Assembly: GCF_003602235.1 (NCBI RefSeq)
Contig: NZ_QZVS01000088.1
Span: 1 to 64,000, forward strand
Source: Cryobacterium melibiosiphilum
GTDB taxonomy: Bacteria; Actinomycetota; Actinomycetes; Actinomycetales; Microbacteriaceae
DNA length: 64,000 nucleotides
Direction of reading: 5' to 3'
The notes under the pieces: generated by a model
The model's database searches: none
Told to the model about the DNA's origin: nothing
What the model saw: only the letters and a program-made list of their open reading frames with translations
Part shown: piece by piece, positions 44,749 to 54,211 of the stretch
Numbering within the stretch: the stretch's first letter is position 1
Layout of the letters: each line of letters opens with the position of its first letter
Made by a program: the position numbers and the translations under genes

Positions 44749-45609
44749 TCAGCGCACGCGCCGGGCGGAGAACTGCATGCGCGGATCCGCGTAGGAGTTT
44801 TGCGCCTGCACGAGCTGCAGTTCTCGCTCACCCGATTTGTAGGTCAGTTCGATGAGGTCGAACACGCTGGACGCGGTCCGTTCCAGCGCCACAGCGGCGT
44901 CACCCGTCGCGCGGTAGTGCGCCGAGAAGAGCGCCGCGGTGACATCACCCGATCCGTTCGCCTTGAAAGGAAGATGGGGAGTCTGCACGATCCAGGCGCC
45001 CGCAGCATCCACTGCGAGCATCTCGATGGTGCCGGGCTCGCGGTCGGGGCGTTCCACACTCGTCACGAGCACGGTGGACGGTCCCATCATTCGGGCGAGG
45101 TCGACGGAATCGAGTGTTGGCTGCATCGTCGATGGCTCGGTTCCGGTGAGGAATCCCAACTCGAACTGGTTCGGAGTGATGATGTCGGCCACGGGGACGA
45201 CGCGATCCCGAAGTAGCACGGGGATCTCGGGCGCCACGAAGCATCCCGACTTCGCGTTACCCATCACGGGGTCGCACGCGTAGATGGCCGAGGGGTTCGC
45301 CGCCTTCACTCGCTTGACCGCATCCACGATGACGTCGCCGATGCCGGTGCCGCCCTGGTATCCCGAGAGCACGACGTCGATCTGGGGGAGCACCCCGCGT
45401 TCTTCGATACCGAGGATGACCTCGTGCACATCCTCGGGTGCAATGAGGGATCCGCGCCAGGCTCCGTACCCCGTGTGGTTGGAGAAGTGCACGGTGTTGA
45501 CCGGCAGTACCTCGACCCCAATGCGCTGGAGGGGGAACACCGCGGCCGAGTTGCCAACGTGGCCGTAAGCGACGGCCGACTGAATCGAGAGAATCTTCAC
45601 GACGTCCAT
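44749..45609 (-). CDS. pdxY: Pyridoxal kinase
   Basis: 286 aa. Ribokinase fold: ILSIQSAVAYGHVGNSAAVF at the N-terminus, DPVMGNAKSGCFV for substrate/ATP contacts, and the catalytic anion hole NGSGDVTAALF. It phosphorylates pyridoxal in the PLP salvage pathway. ATG at 45609 follows GGGAGGAAG. Divergent from the HAD-ABC operon with 292 bp between. Confidence 0.9.
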   Translation of the reverse strand: MDVVKILSIQSAVAYGHVGNSAAVFPLQRIGVEVLPVNTVHFSNHTGYGAWRGSLIAPEDVHEVILGIEERGVLPQIDVVLSGYQGGTGIGDVIVDAVKRVKAANPSAIYACDPVMGNAKSGCFVAPEIPVLLRDRVVPVADIITPNQFELGFLTGTEPSTMQPTLDSVDLARMMGPSTVLVTSVERPDREPGTIEMLAVDAAGAWIVQTPHLPFKANGSGDVTAALFSAHYRATGDAAVALERTASSVFDLIELTYKSGERELQLVQAQNSYADPRMQFSARRVR

Positions 45610-45901
45610 CTTCCTCCCTTCGATCCGACCGGCTTGCAGTGGGGTGGCATGGCGGCAGTCCAGTGGACCGCCGATGCTGCGGGAATGTTGATTCCGAACT
45701 GCGACATCCCGCCTGAGACCTCTCGGAGAGTCGACGCATGAGCTCGCACAGGTCAGAGACGTGCGCGCAGGACGGGCGCGGCCTTCGTCGAAGTCCGGAA
45801 TTTACGCTGCGTTCACCACTTCTGGCCCTTCCGTCCATTTTGATTCAACATTATGGACGAAGCGCCCAGACTGCCGATCACCTGGGTCAGAGAGCAGAAC
45901 A

Positions 45902-46579
45902 GTGCAACGCCCGATTCTCATTTTCGACTTCGACGGCACCGTTGCCCTCGGCGACGGCCCCGTTTTGGCCTACGCCTCCATGGTGGCCGCCGCTGCCGGC
46001 CTCGGCGATCACCTACGTCGCGACACGGAACGGATGCTGGCGGCTGGAATCCATCTCAGCGCCACCGACGCCTACGACCTGGTGCGCATGCTCGCGGTGG
46101 GCTGTGGTGTCGAGCGGGCCGACCTCGACGAAGGCTACCGCCGCAGCCGCGACCTGCTTGCCACACCGACCGCACCCGTCGTCGCGCCCGACGGGCTCGC
46201 TGACTTTCTCGAAAACACCGGCGCCGAGCGGATGCTCGTCACCAACTCACCCACCACCCGGCTCGAGCAGGCACTGGTCTCGTTGGGGCTGGCCACCAGT
46301 TTCGACCGCATTGTCACCTCGGCTGGCAAACCCAGCGGCCTCGAACACCTGCTCGACGAGTTGCTGCAAGACGGGCCACGCAACATTCTGTGCATCGGCG
46401 ACATCTGGCGCAACGATCTTGCCCCGGCCCACGCGCGAGGGCTGATAACCGCGCACGTCGGAATCTGGGGCACCGGAGATGAACCGGCCACCTACCGCGC
46501 CGCTGGAATCACCGCGCTTCTGCCCGACCTACGCGAGTGGGTGCGCACCATGACCATCAGCGAACCGGCCCGGCAATGA
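45902..46579 (+). CDS. HAD-family phosphatase
   Basis: 225 aa from GTG at 45902. Motif I DFDGT (nucleophile Asp9, acid Asp11), motif II in LVTNSP, motif III Lys in SAGKPSG, motif IV CIGDIWRND. Helical cap after motif I (class C1). Stop overlaps the ATG of the next permease gene (ATGA), making it the first gene of the transporter operon, so its substrate is probably the imported compound or a phosphorylated product. Confidence 0.9.
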   Translation: MQRPILIFDFDGTVALGDGPVLAYASMVAAAAGLGDHLRRDTERMLAAGIHLSATDAYDLVRMLAVGCGVERADLDEGYRRSRDLLATPTAPVVAPDGLADFLENTGAERMLVTNSPTTRLEQALVSLGLATSFDRIVTSAGKPSGLEHLLDELLQDGPRNILCIGDIWRNDLAPAHARGLITAHVGIWGTGDEPATYRAAGITALLPDLREWVRTMTISEPARQ

Positions 46580-47481
46580 CCGTCGTGACTGTCTCCCGTC
46601 GCCGTCGTCCGTTCGCCTCGCGGTGGGCCTACGCCTTCATCGCCCCGGCGGTCGTGGTATTCGCCGTCTTCACCATCGTGCCGACCTTGGCCACGCTCGG
46701 GATCTCCCTGTTCGAGTGGAACTGGCTGAATATCGGCCAGTCCACGCTGATCGGCCTCGACAACTACACCGCGATGGTCAGCGGGGCCATGCTCCCGTCT
46801 TTCTGGAGCACCCTCGCCGTCACCGCGAGTTTCGTGGTCAGCATGGTTGTAATCGTCACCGCGCTCGGGCTTGCCATCGCCGTGCTGCTGCGCCGGCCCA
46901 CCCGGCTATCGATGTTTGGCCGGTCAGCGATTTTTCTCGCTTTCGTCACACCCCAGGTTGCCACCTCCATCTCCTGGATTTGGATGTATAACGATCGATT
47001 CGGTGTGATCAACGCCGTACTCGAGCGGCTCGCGTTGCCGCGCGTGAACTGGCTGGGTGACCCCGACACGGCGTTGCTCGCGATCCTCATCTACTCCCTG
47101 TGGCACGCCACCGGCTTCTCGATGATGATTTTCATCGGTGGGCTAGCCAGTGTCTCCCAGGAGCTCGGTGAGGCGGCCCGGATAGATGGCTGCAGCCACT
47201 GGCAGGAATTCTGGTACATCACCCTGCCCGAATTGCGGCCCTTCGTCGTCTTCGCGGTCATCATCGCCACGATCAACGCCCTGCAGGCCTTCACCCAGTT
47301 CTTCGTGATGACGGGCGGCGGGCCGGGATACTCGACCGCCACCCTGGGCTTTCAGGTCTACCAACAGGCGTTCGTGTCGCGTAACGCCGGGTACGCCGCC
47401 GCTCTGGCTGTCGTGCTGTTCGCCATCACAGCGGTCATGGCCTACGCCCAGCAGCGCGTGAACCGCCGCCTCGATCCCTGA
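46576..47481 (+). CDS. ABC sugar transporter permease (UgpA/MalF type)
   Basis: 301 aa from ATG at 46576. Six transmembrane helices; EAA loop ELGEAARIDGCSHWQEFWYI then TLPELRPF; and the CUT1 end GGPGYSTATLGFQVYQQAF. Pairs with the second permease at 48901-49821. CUT1 systems carry oligosaccharides, glycerol phosphates or related compounds. Confidence 0.9.
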   Translation: MTVVTVSRRRRPFASRWAYAFIAPAVVVFAVFTIVPTLATLGISLFEWNWLNIGQSTLIGLDNYTAMVSGAMLPSFWSTLAVTASFVVSMVVIVTALGLAIAVLLRRPTRLSMFGRSAIFLAFVTPQVATSISWIWMYNDRFGVINAVLERLALPRVNWLGDPDTALLAILIYSLWHATGFSMMIFIGGLASVSQELGEAARIDGCSHWQEFWYITLPELRPFVVFAVIIATINALQAFTQFFVMTGGGPGYSTATLGFQVYQQAFVSRNAGYAAALAVVLFAITAVMAYAQQRVNRRLDP

Positions 47482-47548
47482 CGCGCCCATCTTTCCCCGC
47501 ACTCTTTCCGTGTCTGTTCGTTCCCACTCTCAACCTCAGGAGTCCGCA

Positions 47549-48904
47549 ATGTCTCGATGCACGTCTCACAGCACCACGTCGCACAACGTCACGACCAACA
47601 GCTCCACGACCAACAGCTCCACATCCGCCTTCGGCTCACGACGGCGCACCCTGGGCGTCGCCGGCGCCGGAGTGGTGCTTGCCATCGCGCTCAGCGGATG
47701 CAGCACCCCCGACGCCGACGCCGGTTCGGCTTCGGGCGACGTCACGGTCACCTTCATGGAAGCCATGTCGTCGGGGGCGCTCAAGCCCTCGCTCGAGGCG
47801 GCCACCGCGCGGTTCGAAGCCGACAATCCCGGCATCACCGTCGAGCTCATCGAGCAGCCGGATTACGGGACCCTGTTCACCAAGATCGAGTCCTCGGTCG
47901 CCGCCGGCGCCGCGCCGACGATCGCCCAGGTCAACGCCGCGTGGGCCGTGACGCTCGCCGACAGCGACGTCATCCTGCCGCTGGATGATCGCGTCGCCGG
48001 GTCGGCTACGTACGACTCGTTTTACGATGGAATCAAGAACGACATGACCCTGGTCGACGGCCAGAACTGGATGTGGCCCTTCAACAAGTCGCTCTACGTG
48101 CAGTATTTCAACTCAAACCTGGTTGCCGACGCTCCGAGCACGTGGACGGAGTTCGCGACGACCGCGCGCGACGTGTCGACCGACGGTGTCGTGGCCGTCT
48201 CGACGGATCCGGGCGGAGCCTCGGGCATCGGCCAGGGCAGCGAGCTGGTCGGCATGATCGCCGAGTCCAACGGCGGATCGATGTTCGATGACGAGGGTGT
48301 GCCGACCTTCACCGACCCTGAGGTGATCAGCGCGCTGGAATACCTGGTGGGGCTGCAGGCAGACGGCGCACTGGCCGCGGGCACCAATTATCCCGGCCAG
48401 CAGGCGCTCGGTGCCGAGAAGGGTGCGTTCGACCTGAGCACGGTGGCGTCTTACCAGTACAACCTGGCCGCGGTGGATGGCAAGTTCGAGATGGGCGTCG
48501 CGACGTTGCCGGAGGGCACAGAGGGCGCCTCAAACGCGCTGTCGGGAACCAACATCGCGATGTTCGCCGACGCGACCGACGCCGAGCAGGATGCCGCCTG
48601 GCAGTACATGGAGTTTCTCGCCTCGTCCGCCGAAACGGCCGAGTGGGCGGCCGCGACCGGTTACCTGCCCGTCACCCCCGACGCCATCGACGAGCCCGTC
48701 TACGCCGACTACATCGCGAGCAACCCGTGGGTGAGCGACGTGATCGCTCAGCTCGACATCGCCGTGCGCCCGACCCCGCGCCCGTGGACCACGGACAGCC
48801 TGTCGATCTTCGCCGCGATGGTCTCCGAAGCGCTCGCGGGCGCATCCACGCCCGCTGACGCACTCGAACGCGCACAGGACGCCGCTCTCGCCCTGGTCAA
48901 GTGA
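47549..48904 (+). CDS. Extracellular solute-binding lipoprotein
   Basis: 451 aa from ATG at 47549 with CAGGAG upstream. The signal peptide carries an Arg-rich start (GSRRRTLGVAG) and a lipobox ALSGC, so it may be Tat-exported and lipid-anchored. The family 1 SBP fold follows (VTFMEAMSSGALKPSLEAAT, then FEADNPGITVELIEQPDYGT). Its unusual Ser/Thr-rich N-region before the twin arginine is about 28 residues long. Confidence 0.9.
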   Translation: MSRCTSHSTTSHNVTTNSSTTNSSTSAFGSRRRTLGVAGAGVVLAIALSGCSTPDADAGSASGDVTVTFMEAMSSGALKPSLEAATARFEADNPGITVELIEQPDYGTLFTKIESSVAAGAAPTIAQVNAAWAVTLADSDVILPLDDRVAGSATYDSFYDGIKNDMTLVDGQNWMWPFNKSLYVQYFNSNLVADAPSTWTEFATTARDVSTDGVVAVSTDPGGASGIGQGSELVGMIAESNGGSMFDDEGVPTFTDPEVISALEYLVGLQADGALAAGTNYPGQQALGAEKGAFDLSTVASYQYNLAAVDGKFEMGVATLPEGTEGASNALSGTNIAMFADATDAEQDAAWQYMEFLASSAETAEWAAATGYLPVTPDAIDEPVYADYIASNPWVSDVIAQLDIAVRPTPRPWTTDSLSIFAAMVSEALAGASTPADALERAQDAALALVK

Positions 48905-49821
48905 CCGCCCTTACCGAGCAGCGGGCGCGGCCACGCGACTCAGCGCTCGATGAGCCCGCGCTCGCACCCGTCGCCGCCTTGCCCCGCGCGGGGCGGCACC
49001 GGCGGCGAGTTGCGCGCCTGACGCATGCGGTCGTCGTCACGGCTCTTGCGCTGCTGTTCCTGTTCCCGCTCCTGTGGGTGCTGAACACCAGCCTGGCCAA
49101 CGATGGCGACGTCTACCAGGTTCCGCCGTCCTTTCTTCCCTCCTGGAATTGGGCGAACTACCAGCGGGCCTGGGAGGCGGCGCCGTGGCTGCGGTATTTC
49201 GGCAACACGATGCTGATCGCAGGTTCCGTCGCCAGCCTGTGTATGTTCACGTCGCTGCTGGCCGGATTCAGCTTTGCGCTCATGCGGTTTCGCGGCCGTA
49301 ACGCCGCGTTCGCTCTCGTGATGGGGGTGTTGATGATTCCCCACACCGTGCTGCTCATTCCCAACTTTCTCGTGGCCAGCACGCTCGGCCTTCTGGACAC
49401 CTATCTAATTCAAATTTTGCCCTTCGCGGCGACGGCCTTCGGAATCTTTCTCATTCGGCAGGCGTTCACCAAGGTCTCGCCGGAGATCTTCGAGGCCGCC
49501 GAGATGGACGGCGCCGGCCCGCTGCGGATGCTGTTCTCCATCGGTGCGCCGCTCGTGGTGCCGAGCCTCGCGCTGGTCGGGCTGACCTCGTTCCTGGGGT
49601 CGTGGAACGCGTTGATCTGGCCATACATCTTCACGACGTCGGACGCGGTGCGCCCGATCGAGGTGGGACTGCAACTCTTCTACGGCACCGAGGGAACCGA
49701 CTGGACCGGCCTGAGCGCCGCCGTGGTCTTCACCACGATTCCGCTCATCGTGCTCTACCTCTTCGCCCAGCGCTTCTTCATCGGCGACAAATGGGGCCTG
49801 CAGGGCGCCGTGCGCGGCTGA
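48901..49821 (+). CDS. ABC sugar transporter permease (UgpE/MalG type)
   Basis: 306 aa from GTG at 48901, overlapping the SBP stop. Six helices and the EAA loop EIFEAAEMDGAGPLRMLFSI. No ATPase gene in the operon, as in many actinobacterial CUT1 importers that share the ATPase MsiK. Confidence 0.9.
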   Translation: MTALTEQRARPRDSALDEPALAPVAALPRAGRHRRRVARLTHAVVVTALALLFLFPLLWVLNTSLANDGDVYQVPPSFLPSWNWANYQRAWEAAPWLRYFGNTMLIAGSVASLCMFTSLLAGFSFALMRFRGRNAAFALVMGVLMIPHTVLLIPNFLVASTLGLLDTYLIQILPFAATAFGIFLIRQAFTKVSPEIFEAAEMDGAGPLRMLFSIGAPLVVPSLALVGLTSFLGSWNALIWPYIFTTSDAVRPIEVGLQLFYGTEGTDWTGLSAAVVFTTIPLIVLYLFAQRFFIGDKWGLQGAVRG

Positions 49822-49823
49822 CG

Positions 49824-49840
49824 CCGGGCGCTTCGCCCGG
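49824..49840 (+). terminator. Intra-operon hairpin
   Basis: CCGGGCG-CTT-CGCCCGG, a perfect 7-bp stem, 3 bp after the second permease stop and 48 bp before the metallo-hydrolase gene. It may reduce read-through or protect the upstream mRNA. Confidence 0.5.
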
Positions 49841-49887
49841 AACGCCCCGGAACACTCCGATCATCTCTCAACCAAAGGACGAACGAC

Positions 49888-51261
49888 ATGAACACGACAA
49901 CTACCGCAACCGAAACGCGGGTGCAGATTCTGGGTGGCATCGAGGTGATCGGCGGCAGCGTCGTACTCGTCTCCACCCCGAACGCCCGGGTGATTCTCGA
50001 TTTCGGAATGCGCGACCTCAATACCGGCCTGCTCCAGACCCCCGGCGGCCCGCGCCGCGGCCACGAGCTGGTCGACCTGCTGCGGGCCGCCGAGCTGCCC
50101 GTCTCGCCGGGACTCTACGACCCGGCGCAGCTCGCCTCGGATCCGCAGCTGGCGGCCTCCACCCGCGCAAACCGCGATGCGCGACCCACAGCCGTGTTCC
50201 TCTCGCACGCCCACATCGATCACGAGGGGGCTCTCGGATTTCTCGACCCGAGCCTGCCGCTGTACGCGTCTGAGGAGACAACGGTGATGCTCAACGCCCT
50301 GCGCGACACCGGTGAGTACCGCCCGGGACACCCCCTGGCGCCGATCGCGGTCGACACCGGAGAGACGATTCGGGTGGGCGACCTCACGGTCGAGCTGATC
50401 CCCGTCGACCACGACATCCCCGGCGCGTGCGGGGTGCTGGTTACAGCACCTGACGGTAGCGTGGTCTACACGGGGGATCTCAATTTTCATCGCGATGGCG
50501 GGATGCGCTCGCACGCTTTCGCCGAACGCATCCGCGGTGTGGATTTGCTCGTCACCGAAACGACGATGCTTTCGTTCGATCACCCCCCGATCACTACGCG
50601 CAGCGAGGCAGAGATCGAGGAAATTCTGGCCGCAGAGCTGACCGGCGTGCCCGGCCTGGTGCTCATGTCGGCCTACCCCCGCGACGCGGAGCGTGCCCAG
50701 CGGCTGATTGCGCTCGCCCGAACCCACGGGCGCGAACTCGTGTGGCCGAGCCGGGACGCCGCTCTCCTGGCGGCGATGGGAGTGTCGGACGTCACCAGCT
50801 GGGCATCGGAGCGCGCCGAGTCCGATTCACGCCCGCTCGCTGCGGGAATCAACCGAGTGACCGTCGCAGCGGTGGCGGCTGAGCCCGGCCACTATCTCGT
50901 GCAGCCCGACGGGCATGATGCACCGGCCTTGGCGGACCTGCCGATCGTTTCCGGTAGTACCGTCTGGGTGCACTCGCAGGGCGAGCCGCTCGGACCGTTC
51001 ATGCCCGACTGGGAAGTCTTTCAGCTCTGGTTGCAGAAGTTGGGTATTGCGGTAATCGAGGCCGGATCCACCGGTCATGCGCTCGGTCATGACCTGTTGG
51101 CCTTCGTCGAGCATGTCGCCCCCGGCTGTGTGCTTCCCATCCACGGGAAGCGGCCCGAGGCGCTCACCGTCTCCATGCCTCGGGTGCTTCCTCGCTACGG
51201 TGACGTGTACTTGCTCGATGGGACCGTCGTGGGGCACGAACTCGTTTCGGTGGCGTCCTGA
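49888..51261 (+). CDS. RNase J/beta-CASP-like metallo-beta-lactamase-fold hydrolase
   Basis: 457 aa. GGIEVIGGSVVLVSTPNARV then ILDFG is the RNase J-type start. Motif II HAHIDH (107-112), motif III His175, motif IV Asp197, then beta-CASP-like TGHALG (His397) and PIHGK (His419). It lacks the C-terminal domain of RNase J (457 versus about 555 residues). In a sugar-uptake operon a nuclease is unexpected; like UlaG (ascorbate-6-P lactonase) it may hydrolyse a small lactone or phosphodiester. Function inferred from context only. Confidence 0.8.
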   Translation: MNTTTTATETRVQILGGIEVIGGSVVLVSTPNARVILDFGMRDLNTGLLQTPGGPRRGHELVDLLRAAELPVSPGLYDPAQLASDPQLAASTRANRDARPTAVFLSHAHIDHEGALGFLDPSLPLYASEETTVMLNALRDTGEYRPGHPLAPIAVDTGETIRVGDLTVELIPVDHDIPGACGVLVTAPDGSVVYTGDLNFHRDGGMRSHAFAERIRGVDLLVTETTMLSFDHPPITTRSEAEIEEILAAELTGVPGLVLMSAYPRDAERAQRLIALARTHGRELVWPSRDAALLAAMGVSDVTSWASERAESDSRPLAAGINRVTVAAVAAEPGHYLVQPDGHDAPALADLPIVSGSTVWVHSQGEPLGPFMPDWEVFQLWLQKLGIAVIEAGSTGHALGHDLLAFVEHVAPGCVLPIHGKRPEALTVSMPRVLPRYGDVYLLDGTVVGHELVSVAS

Positions 51262-51353
51262 GGTGACGGCAGCGGTCGCTCACACTTTGCCACGCGGTAC
51301 CGTAGGAAAATGGCCTGCATCAGGCGACCGCCCATCAGTCAAGGAGCACGCTC

Positions 51354-52217
51354 GTGATCGCTGAACCTCCGGTCGGCTCGGGTGCGCCCATCACGGTGCG
51401 AGTCGCCGCCGTACGCAACACCCTGCAGCCCACCGAACGTCGGGTGGCTGACCTCATCGTCTCCGAGCCGGAACTCGTAGTGGAACTAACCGCCCAGCAG
51501 GTGGCGGATCGAGTCGGCGTTGCCCGATCGTCCGTGGTGCGGGCAAGCCAATCCCTGGGCTACCGCGGGTACCCACAGCTCAGGATGGCGCTCGCTGGCG
51601 AGCTGGGCGCCCACGATTCGTTCGACCACGGTGAGGGGGCCATCGGCCGGCTGCGCACAGTGATGGACAGAACCGCGCGGGCCCTGAACAATTCCACCAG
51701 CCTTCTCGATGTTGATGAGCTCGAGGGCGCAATCGATTTGATCGCGCGGGCGCGACGGGTCTTCGTCGTAGCCAACGGGCTGTCCGCCTCGGTGGCCAGC
51801 AATCTTGCGACGCGTCTGACGTCGATCGGACGATCGGCCGAGATCGTGCCCGACGCGGTGTCGCAGCAAATTGCGGCGCGGCAGCTGACACCCGACGACG
51901 TATGCGTGGTGGTGAGCGGCACGGGCACGAACGAGTTCAGCCTGCGCACCGCCGCGGCCGCGGTGAGCGCTGGGGCGAATGTGATCGCGATCACGTCATT
52001 CCAAAAGTCTGACCTCACGGGCCTGGCCCACCGGGTGCTGGTCGTCGCCCCGGCAAGCTTTCGGGATGAACTGGAACACTACTCACGGGTCGCGCAAGCC
52101 GCCTTCGTCGAGGCGCTCGTGGACTTGGTCGCGGAGGTCTTCGCCGACCGGGCACAGCACGCTCGCGGTCTGGTGCTGGAAATTCTCTCCGACAACCTCG
52201 GCGACACCATCTCGTAG
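51354..52217 (+). CDS. RpiR/MurR family regulator
   Basis: 287 aa from GTG at 51354 with AAGGAG upstream. RpiR HTH (LTAQQVADRVGVARSSVVRA, then QSLGYRGYPQLRMAL) and a SIS domain (about 120-260: RRVFVVANGLSASVASNLAT, then CVVVSGTGTNEFSLRTAAAA). SIS domains bind phosphosugars, so the operon inducer or corepressor is probably a sugar phosphate. Last gene of the HAD-ABC-MBL cluster. Confidence 0.9.
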   Translation: MIAEPPVGSGAPITVRVAAVRNTLQPTERRVADLIVSEPELVVELTAQQVADRVGVARSSVVRASQSLGYRGYPQLRMALAGELGAHDSFDHGEGAIGRLRTVMDRTARALNNSTSLLDVDELEGAIDLIARARRVFVVANGLSASVASNLATRLTSIGRSAEIVPDAVSQQIAARQLTPDDVCVVVSGTGTNEFSLRTAAAAVSAGANVIAITSFQKSDLTGLAHRVLVVAPASFRDELEHYSRVAQAAFVEALVDLVAEVFADRAQHARGLVLEILSDNLGDTIS

Positions 52218-52984: not shown

Positions 52985-54211
52985 ATGAGCGATGACCACA
53001 CGATCACGGCCGTGAGAGCGACCGGGCGGGGATCCGTGTGGGAGGTGTTCCGGGTTTTCCTCCGTTTGGGCCTGACCTCCTTCGGCGGGCCGATCGCGCA
53101 CTTGGGCTATTTTCGTGAGGACCTGATTCAGCGGCGCAAGTGGCTGAATGACGACGAATACGCCGACCTCGTGGCCCTGGGGCAGTTCCTTCCCGGCCCG
53201 GCCTCCAGCCAGGTCGGCTTCGGAATCGGGCTCTACCGCGCGGGTCCCGCCGGCGGGATCGCCGCGGCCGTCGCGTTCACTCTTCCGTCCGCTGTGCTGC
53301 TCACGGCCTTCGCGTTCGGGACGTCCCTGTTCGAGGGCGTCATCGGCGCCGGCATCCTGAACGGTCTGAAGATTGTTGCCGTCGCCATCGTCGCCCAGGC
53401 AGTCCGGGGAATGGCGCGAACCCTCACCCCCGACCGGCCTCGTGCCGCGATCGCCGTGGTGGCCGTGCTGAGCGCCCTGTTGCTCGGCGGTTCTGTGGGC
53501 CAGATCGGGGCGATCGTGGTTGGAGCTCTCCTCGGCCTGATCTGCTGCCGCACCGGCACGAGTTCCACCACGACCCTCGCCCGGTTTCCCGTCAGTCGCC
53601 TGGCCGGGTGGATGTGCCTCACCCTGTTCACCGTCCTCCTGGTCGGGCTCCCCGTGGTCGCATCCGTCACCGGTTCCGGAATCATTCAGCTGCTTGCCGC
53701 CTTCTACCGAGCCGGGGCGCTGGTTTTCGGTGGCGGCCATGTCGTTCTCCCTCTTCTCCAAACCGGTGTCGTCGACACGGGCTGGGTCACCTCCGATCAG
53801 TTCCTCGCCGGATACGGGGCCGCCCAGGCCGTTCCCGGGCCCTTGTTCACCTTCGCGGCATACCTCGGCACCCTCTCCACCACGGGGCCGGGTGGCATTC
53901 TCGGCGCGGCTGTCGCTCTGGGCGGAATCCTCCTGCCCAGCTTCCTGATCCTTGTCGGCGTGCTCCCCTTCTGGAACAGCTTCCGAACGCGGCCGCGAGC
54001 GCAGGCCATCATGCGCGGTGCGAATGCCGCCGTGGTCGGCATCCTCGCCGCCGCGCTCTATGACCCCGTGTTCGTGACCGCCGTCACCGGACCGCCCACG
54101 TTCGCCCTGGCACTGGTCTGCTTCGTGCTGCTCATCGCCTGGAAGGTGCCGGCGTGGGCGGTGGTCATGGTCGGCGCTGCGGGCGGGATCGTGCTCGAGC
54201 TGCTTCGATGA
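52985..54211 (+). CDS. chrA: Chromate transporter ChrA
   Basis: 408 aa. Two homologous halves, each with the CHR motif: FLRLGLTSFGGPIAHLGYFR ... ALGQFLPGPASSQVGFGIG, and FYRAGALVFGGGHVVLPLLQ ... YGAAQAVPGPLFTFAAYLG. About 10-12 helices, the length of bidomain ChrA proteins. It exports chromate or a related oxyanion. No chrB is adjacent. Confidence 0.9.
   Translation: MSDDHTITAVRATGRGSVWEVFRVFLRLGLTSFGGPIAHLGYFREDLIQRRKWLNDDEYADLVALGQFLPGPASSQVGFGIGLYRAGPAGGIAAAVAFTLPSAVLLTAFAFGTSLFEGVIGAGILNGLKIVAVAIVAQAVRGMARTLTPDRPRAAIAVVAVLSALLLGGSVGQIGAIVVGALLGLICCRTGTSSTTTLARFPVSRLAGWMCLTLFTVLLVGLPVVASVTGSGIIQLLAAFYRAGALVFGGGHVVLPLLQTGVVDTGWVTSDQFLAGYGAAQAVPGPLFTFAAYLGTLSTTGPGGILGAAVALGGILLPSFLILVGVLPFWNSFRTRPRAQAIMRGANAAVVGILAAALYDPVFVTAVTGPPTFALALVCFVLLIAWKVPAWAVVMVGAAGGIVLELLR

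Follow-up and report, generated by a model that had tools for sequence, protein, structure and literature searches.

A Ugp-like operon with a beta-CASP hydrolase in Cryobacterium melibiosiphilum: a possible uptake-and-hydrolysis unit for small phosphodiesters

The ugp operon of Escherichia coli includes ugpQ. Among ATP-binding cassette (ABC) importers, ATPases of the MsiK/MsmK kind are shared between importers. A dinucleotide-binding protein of Thermus was reportedly described by Chandravanshi et al. in FEBS J in 2021. No characterised importer that takes up dinucleotides intact, or short RNA, and works with a nuclease of its own is known to us. The Enterococcus faecalis protein EF2904 is described as a hypothetical beta-CASP protein in PMC3095777. 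Here we analyzed the first 64,000 nucleotides of contig NZ_QZVS01000088.1 of Cryobacterium melibiosiphilum (assembly GCF_003602235.1; hereafter the window), which carries at 45902-52217 an operon related to these systems. No account of this operon was found in the open-licence literature, among the matches listed. We propose, as a serious though tentative possibility, that it encodes a Ugp-like system for taking up and hydrolysing small phosphodiesters, most likely short RNA. That the substrate is a phosphodiester of some kind is probable, while the narrower choice of RNA fragments in particular is made with less assurance than the proposal as a whole. The proposal rests on observed gene content, conservation, motifs, residue mapping and an upstream repeat, from which every ligand, activity and regulatory step named below is inferred.

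All six genes reported in the first-pass annotation are present on the forward strand, each backed by a Pfam match:

45902-46579, + strand, predicted HAD-superfamily phosphatase with a GTG start (PF00702 Hydrolase, 28.6 bits, cut-off 26.4)
46576-47481, + strand, ABC permease 1, UgpA-like (BPD_transp_1, PF00528, 70.3 bits), its start overlapping the HAD stop (ATGA)
47549-48904, + strand, lipoprotein solute-binding protein (SBP) of the Ugp/U3G-binding branch (SBP_bac_8, PF13416, 121.8 bits)
48901-49821, + strand, ABC permease 2, UgpE-like (PF00528, 50.6 bits), with a GTGA overlap with the SBP stop
49888-51261, + strand, metallo-beta-lactamase (MBL)/beta-CASP hydrolase, EF2904-like, proposed phosphodiesterase (Lactamase_B_2/Lactamase_B; match to 2az4)
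51354-52217, + strand, MurR/RpiR-family regulator (HTH_6, 59.4 bits, cut-off 28.3; SIS, 53.7 bits, cut-off 25)

The genes had been called contiguous and mostly overlapping. The six are in place, but overlaps, of 4 nt in each case, occur at only two of the five junctions, HAD/permease 1 and SBP/permease 2. Gaps of 67, 66 and 92 nt separate the others, the first being 28 nt with the GTG start of the SBP. The SBP open reading frame (ORF) opens with this GTG at 47510, and the better start is the ATG at 47549, preceded by AGGAG.

The MBL gene is linked to importer genes well beyond the window. A search of genome contigs with the MBL protein gave two loci. Kineosporia babensis (L006) has all six genes in identical order, with protein identities of 58% (HAD), 76% (permease 1), 64% (SBP), 76% (permease 2), 67% (MBL) and 73% (RpiR). 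The HAD motif residues D9, D11, T114, K143, D167 and D172 are common to the window and Kineosporia; no PDB relative of the HAD protein was found at E<=0.01. Microbacterium indicum (L007) has permease-SBP-permease-MBL at 65, 61, 69 and 58% identity, without HAD or RpiR genes. Two further genomes from the family of C. melibiosiphilum (G448 and G516) carry this four-gene core, with MBL identities of 44 and 42%. The recurrence of the gene order in Kineosporia and of the core in other genomes indicates that the operon is more than a chance arrangement. The low counts in sampled genomes, each including that of the window, show the MBL gene to be rare and patchy: 3 of 398 family genomes at 1e-40, 3 of 394 class genomes at 1e-50, and among 396 phylum genomes 1 with a single protein query at 1e-40 and 4 with a six-row profile at 1e-45. 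The genes on a 7.6-kb contig of G807 (L028) are those for permease 2 (truncated at the contig end), HAD, MBL and a small phosphatase, the last overlapping the MBL stop. G820 (L029) has MBL and HAD genes, after which come those for an SBP, a permease of two domains and an ATPase.

Similar arrangements were found among plasmid and phage records, where the neighborhoods of 6 of the 33 plasmid and 2 of the 15 phage records with MBL matches were read. One of them, found by tblastn, is L008 (OL539428.1), deposited under the name of the E. coli plasmid pCTX-M-55; downstream of liaFSR, its annotation gives the order ATPase-permease-permease-Zn hydrolase-SBP-2',3'-cyclic-nucleotide phosphodiesterase. 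These genes recur at 99-100% identity in a clone listed as a phage of E. faecalis (L063, OR846619.1). Because the MBL of both is also matched by EF2904 in the PDB, L008/L063 was taken as a chromosomal locus of E. faecalis. A Lactobacillus delbrueckii plasmid (L009) has permease-permease-MBL-SBP with broken reading frames, its MBL being 47% identical to that of E. faecalis. A human-gut scaffold filed under phages (L062, MT837886.1) has ATPase-permease-permease-SBP-MBL, cut by the scaffold end. OL539428.1, OR846619.1 and MT837886.1 appear to be fragments of bacterial chromosomes (E. faecalis and a gut bacterium) filed as plasmid or phage, and collection labels can mislead. The search of viral contigs gave one weak partial match (L064).

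Importer genes adjoin the MBL gene in all ten loci read with such an MBL, from Actinomycetota, Lactobacillales and a human-gut contig (the window, L006, L007, L018, L019, L008/L063, L009, L028, L029 and L062). This supports the earlier idea of one unit of import plus hydrolysis and contradicts one of the two conditions named at first as refuting it, that the MBL gene is not conserved with the transporter. The importer is of the CUT1/Ugp type in nine of the loci, L029 being the exception. HAD is present in four (the window, L006, L028 and L029) and an operonic RpiR in two (the window and L006), the RpiR gene of L028 standing behind a nagA-like gene; HAD and RpiR are accessory parts. No importer gene was seen in the annotation or ORF lists of eight other small beta-CASP MBL loci (L010, L011, L012, L022, L023, L033, L034 and L035). 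In a 16-row tree, eight linked MBLs form one clade (support 94/93, just below the bootstrap star of the tool) separate from relatives found on plasmids, from the G266/G072 pair and from the RNase J of the genome. The rows were chosen by us, leaving out L009 (broken), L062 (partial) and L035 (near-duplicate), and two linked rows are long-branched, so the support is only moderate. On the plasmids L011, L012 and L022, small MBL-fold proteins are annotated near restriction-modification, toxin-antitoxin or Avs2 genes, or replication genes, and are maybe a separate mobile-element group.

The MBL protein aligns with EF2904 (2az4) across residues 9-440 (E 1.9e-46, about 29% identity). Residues D38, H107, H109, D111, H112, H175, D197, E224, H397 and H419 are invariant in six of six relatives. 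MBL motifs 1-4 and beta-CASP motifs A, B and C are filled in every one of the 16 tree rows, motif A being Glu or Asp. By its motifs, the protein is predicted to be a complete beta-CASP enzyme. It had been annotated as an RNase J-like enzyme lacking the RNase J C-terminal domain, which agrees with our searches: RNase_J_C (PF17770) and RNase_J_b_CASP (PF22505) gave no match at E<=0.01, and a separate true RNase J in the genome matches both (RNase_J_C at 55.8 bits). An ordinary RNase J paralogue of general RNA turnover, placed among transporter genes by chance, would account for the 71.8 bits that the MBL protein scores on the RNase J family TIGR00649 (cut-off 400). However, the own RNase J of the genome reaches 484.6 bits on that family, and the missing domain and the linkage in distant lineages led us to reject this explanation, which we regard as very improbable.

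The solved relatives found with a profile at E<=1e-5 are EF2904, RNase J (with two entries that bear just the title 'metal dependent hydrolase'), CPSF/FttA, Integrator-11, Apollo, Artemis and TTHA0252. Neither UlaG nor PhnP is among them, and no UlaG type was found by sequence at E<=0.001, so that the analogy first drawn with these two enzymes fails and both were rejected. An MBL fold together with HAD and RpiR is in a general way compatible with a sugar lactone opened by a UlaG-like enzyme, but besides the lack of such a PDB relative, beta-CASP motifs A-C in the MBL and phosphate-contact residues in the SBP speak against it, and a lactone is hardly credible. Residues 362-371 form a block, H-[SA]-x-[GA]-x-P-L-G-x-F, found in seven of the eight linked MBLs of the tree (L029 excepted) and in none of the eight other rows; it is a possible substrate-site signature of the clade. 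AlphaFold models from three-row alignments had mean pLDDT (predicted local distance difference test) values of 44.9 for the MBL and 35.3 for the SBP.

The SBP has its best PDB match in 7c0t, of the 7c0x series (E 2e-37; next other protein 1e-17; UgpB about 1e-13), and a three-row profile widens the distance (9e-48 against 4e-23 for the next). These chains, reportedly those of the Thermus UpG-dinucleotide (U3G)-binding protein, also rank first for the E. faecalis SBP; the SBP beside a related importer in Pantoea is nearest to UgpB instead. Since the SBP falls on this Ugp/dinucleotide branch, phosphodiesters and glycerophosphodiesters, proposed earlier as candidate ligands, are indeed worth testing. 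Residues Y119, S194, T311 and Y385 (counted from 47510) align with the phosphate contacts of E. coli UgpB, whose numbering was cross-read with PMC12718374. In place of the UgpB glycerol contacts Glu, Trp, Trp and Arg there are Ala, Gly, Ser and Leu, the Arg column being poorly aligned. The phosphate set, with Thr counted as Ser, is kept in all 10 Ugp-branch sequences compared. The phosphate site therefore seems, from this mapping, to be kept and the glycerol site not. The phosphodiester branch of the earlier guess, that a sugar derivative is imported and hydrolysed, is supported by the SBP branch and phosphate contacts, and its lactone branch falls with UlaG.

There are 18 SBP_bac_8 places in the genome, 17 of them not the window's. 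One of these, L050, could not be given a score, and L046 and L047 appear to be the same gene in two copies. Among the 16 scored, one (L044, contig C92) has the full phosphate set and the other 15 at most one contact, although remote alignment may misplace columns and lower these counts. The C92 gene stands beside a UgpC-like ATPase (L044/L055, about 115618-117780; 365 bits, cut-off 432), and the pair is perhaps the ordinary Ugp importer of the genome.

The foremost alternative substrate is a glycerophosphodiester or a glycosylated phosphodiester. Here the same machinery would take up a glycerophosphodiester or teichoic-acid-type fragment (a polyol or glycosyl phosphodiester), the MBL would be a UgpQ/GlpQ analogue, and glycosidases would trim sugars in some hosts. 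The glycerol contacts of UgpB are not kept in our SBP, the C92 locus already offers another SBP with a full phosphate set beside a UgpC-like ATPase, and we know of no beta-CASP protein with glycerophosphodiesterase-type activity. The rival is nevertheless favored by the presence of ugpQ in the E. coli operon, by GH1 and GH13 neighbors in other loci, and by the NCBIfam scores, where UgpA, UgpE and UgpB are among the better transporter matches, all below cut-off (permease 1, 96 bits against 335; permease 2, 121.6 against 297; SBP, 52 against 411). The UgpB of Mycobacterium tuberculosis, according to PMC12718374, binds glycerophosphocholine (GPC). On balance we consider this rival unlikely.

Different phosphoesterases stand beside related importers. 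Besides UgpQ in E. coli and the beta-CASP MBL of our operon, there is a calcineurin-type metallophosphoesterase in Pantoea, a 5'-nucleotidase-family, 2',3'-cyclic-nucleotide-phosphodiesterase-like gene adjoining the E. faecalis unit, and a HAD_PNKP-domain gene, the one overlapping the MBL stop in L028. This variety favors phosphodiesters, and two of the enzymes favor nucleotides. Several observations weigh against the proposal. The E. faecalis match (248 bits, cut-off 486) and the L028 match (29.8 bits, cut-off 27.6) are weak, and no PDB match was found for the L028 protein. The 11 kb read at a related importer in Paroceanicella include no gene for a phosphoesterase. The third phosphate contact of the SBP is Thr where UgpB has Ser. 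Three loci have glycosidases close to the unit (GH1 in L007, GH13 in L018 and a similar gene in L019), and nag genes lie beside L028 (NagB by Pfam, NagA by eye). The divergent MBLs of G072, G223 and G266 (about 25% identity) have no importer gene seen beside them (L033-L035). Finally, the importer of L029 is nearest to the 2-aminoethylphosphonate type, all its scores being below curated cut-offs.

This pairing of MBL and HAD with a phosphonate-type importer, together with the nag genes of L028, would suit another phosphorus compound, such as a nucleotide sugar, cyclic phosphate or phosphonate ester, with the MBL as a phosphoesterase of new specificity. These are single loci, and the other nine use a CUT1/Ugp-type importer; we hold this to be quite improbable. 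In G820 (L029:10947-17659), divergent from the MBL-HAD-importer set, a DRL/SAF-domain oxidoreductase and an IspD-like gene were recognized by Pfam, and 2-oxoacid-dehydrogenase genes and a second IspD-like gene by eye, perhaps a polyol- or 1-deoxy-D-xylulose-5-phosphate (DXP)-like pathway.

The operon itself has no ATPase gene. A lone UgpC-like ATPase on contig C68 of the same genome (475 bits, cut-off 432) could serve the importer; the 4-kb locus around it holds no gene that we recognized as belonging to a transporter. A candidate RpiR operator lies upstream:

45832-45859, strand not assigned, 28-bp inverted repeat CGTCCA-N16-TGGACG, 42 nt before the HAD start codon

The same repeat is found in Kineosporia (L006:6229-6256), likewise 42 nt before the HAD start. 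It is the sole exact site in the 4.71-Mb genome, and among 65 loci its 3 matches are the window's locus twice and L006. The rarity alone proves little, because a reversed control pattern also has 1 site and it was a comparison of the two upstream regions that led us to the motif. When up to 2 mismatches are allowed, there are 2 matches in the window against 6.2 expected. The equal position before both RpiR-carrying operons is the stronger point. Promoter scanning gave 2 weak sites (shuffle mean 0.6) and terminator scanning 3 (3.9 for shuffle).

One further element lies inside the operon:

49824-49840, + strand, GC-rich hairpin with a perfect 7-bp stem, in the gap that separates permease 2 from MBL (palindrome search)

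It may process or stabilise the mRNA. Outside the operon, the upstream neighbor is the pyridoxal kinase gene pdxY (44749-45609, - strand, over cut-off) and the downstream neighbor a chromate transporter gene (52985-54211, + strand, PF02417, 246 bits). PdxY was rejected as an operon member, no match to it being found at E<=1e-5 in the Kineosporia or Microbacterium stretches.

In the mechanism we propose, the lipoprotein SBP would capture the phosphodiester outside the cell, and the two permeases would import it, driven by a shared UgpC/MsmK-type ATPase encoded elsewhere. In the cytoplasm the beta-CASP MBL would cleave the phosphodiester bond, filling the role of UgpQ in E. coli, and the HAD enzyme would strip phosphate from the product. 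RpiR may sense the phosphorylated product and act on the inverted repeat upstream to control the operon. Short RNA (di- or oligoribonucleotides) would be the likeliest substrate, converted to nucleotides and then to nucleosides and phosphate. The strictest form of this idea, a dedicated route of RNA-fragment import and digestion in which a Ugp-derived importer works with a stand-alone beta-CASP nuclease yielding nucleotides, is the more doubtful part.

The analysis suggests that some bacteria may import and digest small phosphodiesters, perhaps RNA scraps, by a dedicated route. If RNA is taken up and cut in this way, one testable RNA salvage pathway would bring together the recurrent operon and two orphans, a beta-CASP structure and the dinucleotide-binding protein of Thermus. 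The Thermus protein would gain a pathway and EF2904, solved as hypothetical, a function, in a unit shared by Actinomycetota, Enterococcus, Lactobacillus and a gut bacterium. Even with a glycerophosphodiester substrate, the superfamily would gain a new role, since its beta-CASP member would act outside nucleic-acid metabolism.

Compared with known systems, the operon resembles E. coli ugpBAECQ in joining a CUT1 importer that has Tyr/Ser/Ser(Thr)/Tyr phosphate contacts with a cytoplasmic phosphodiesterase, here a predicted one. However, it has a beta-CASP MBL for UgpQ, does not keep the glycerol clamp, has no ATPase gene, adds HAD and RpiR, and follows another gene order. By sequence as by profile, no solved protein is closer to the SBP than the 7c0x series, which shares its phosphate-contact set, including Thr, although identity is at the level of about 30%. 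The E. faecalis EF2904 (2AZ4) locus likewise has a homologous MBL beside ATPase, permeases and SBP, but in the order ATPase-permease-permease-MBL-SBP-phosphodiesterase-like and without HAD or RpiR. Ribonuclease J shares the MBL and beta-CASP motifs, while the MBL of the operon, with 72 of the 400 bits on TIGR00649 and neither RNase J domain, has Glu at motif A where the own RNase J of the genome has Asp.

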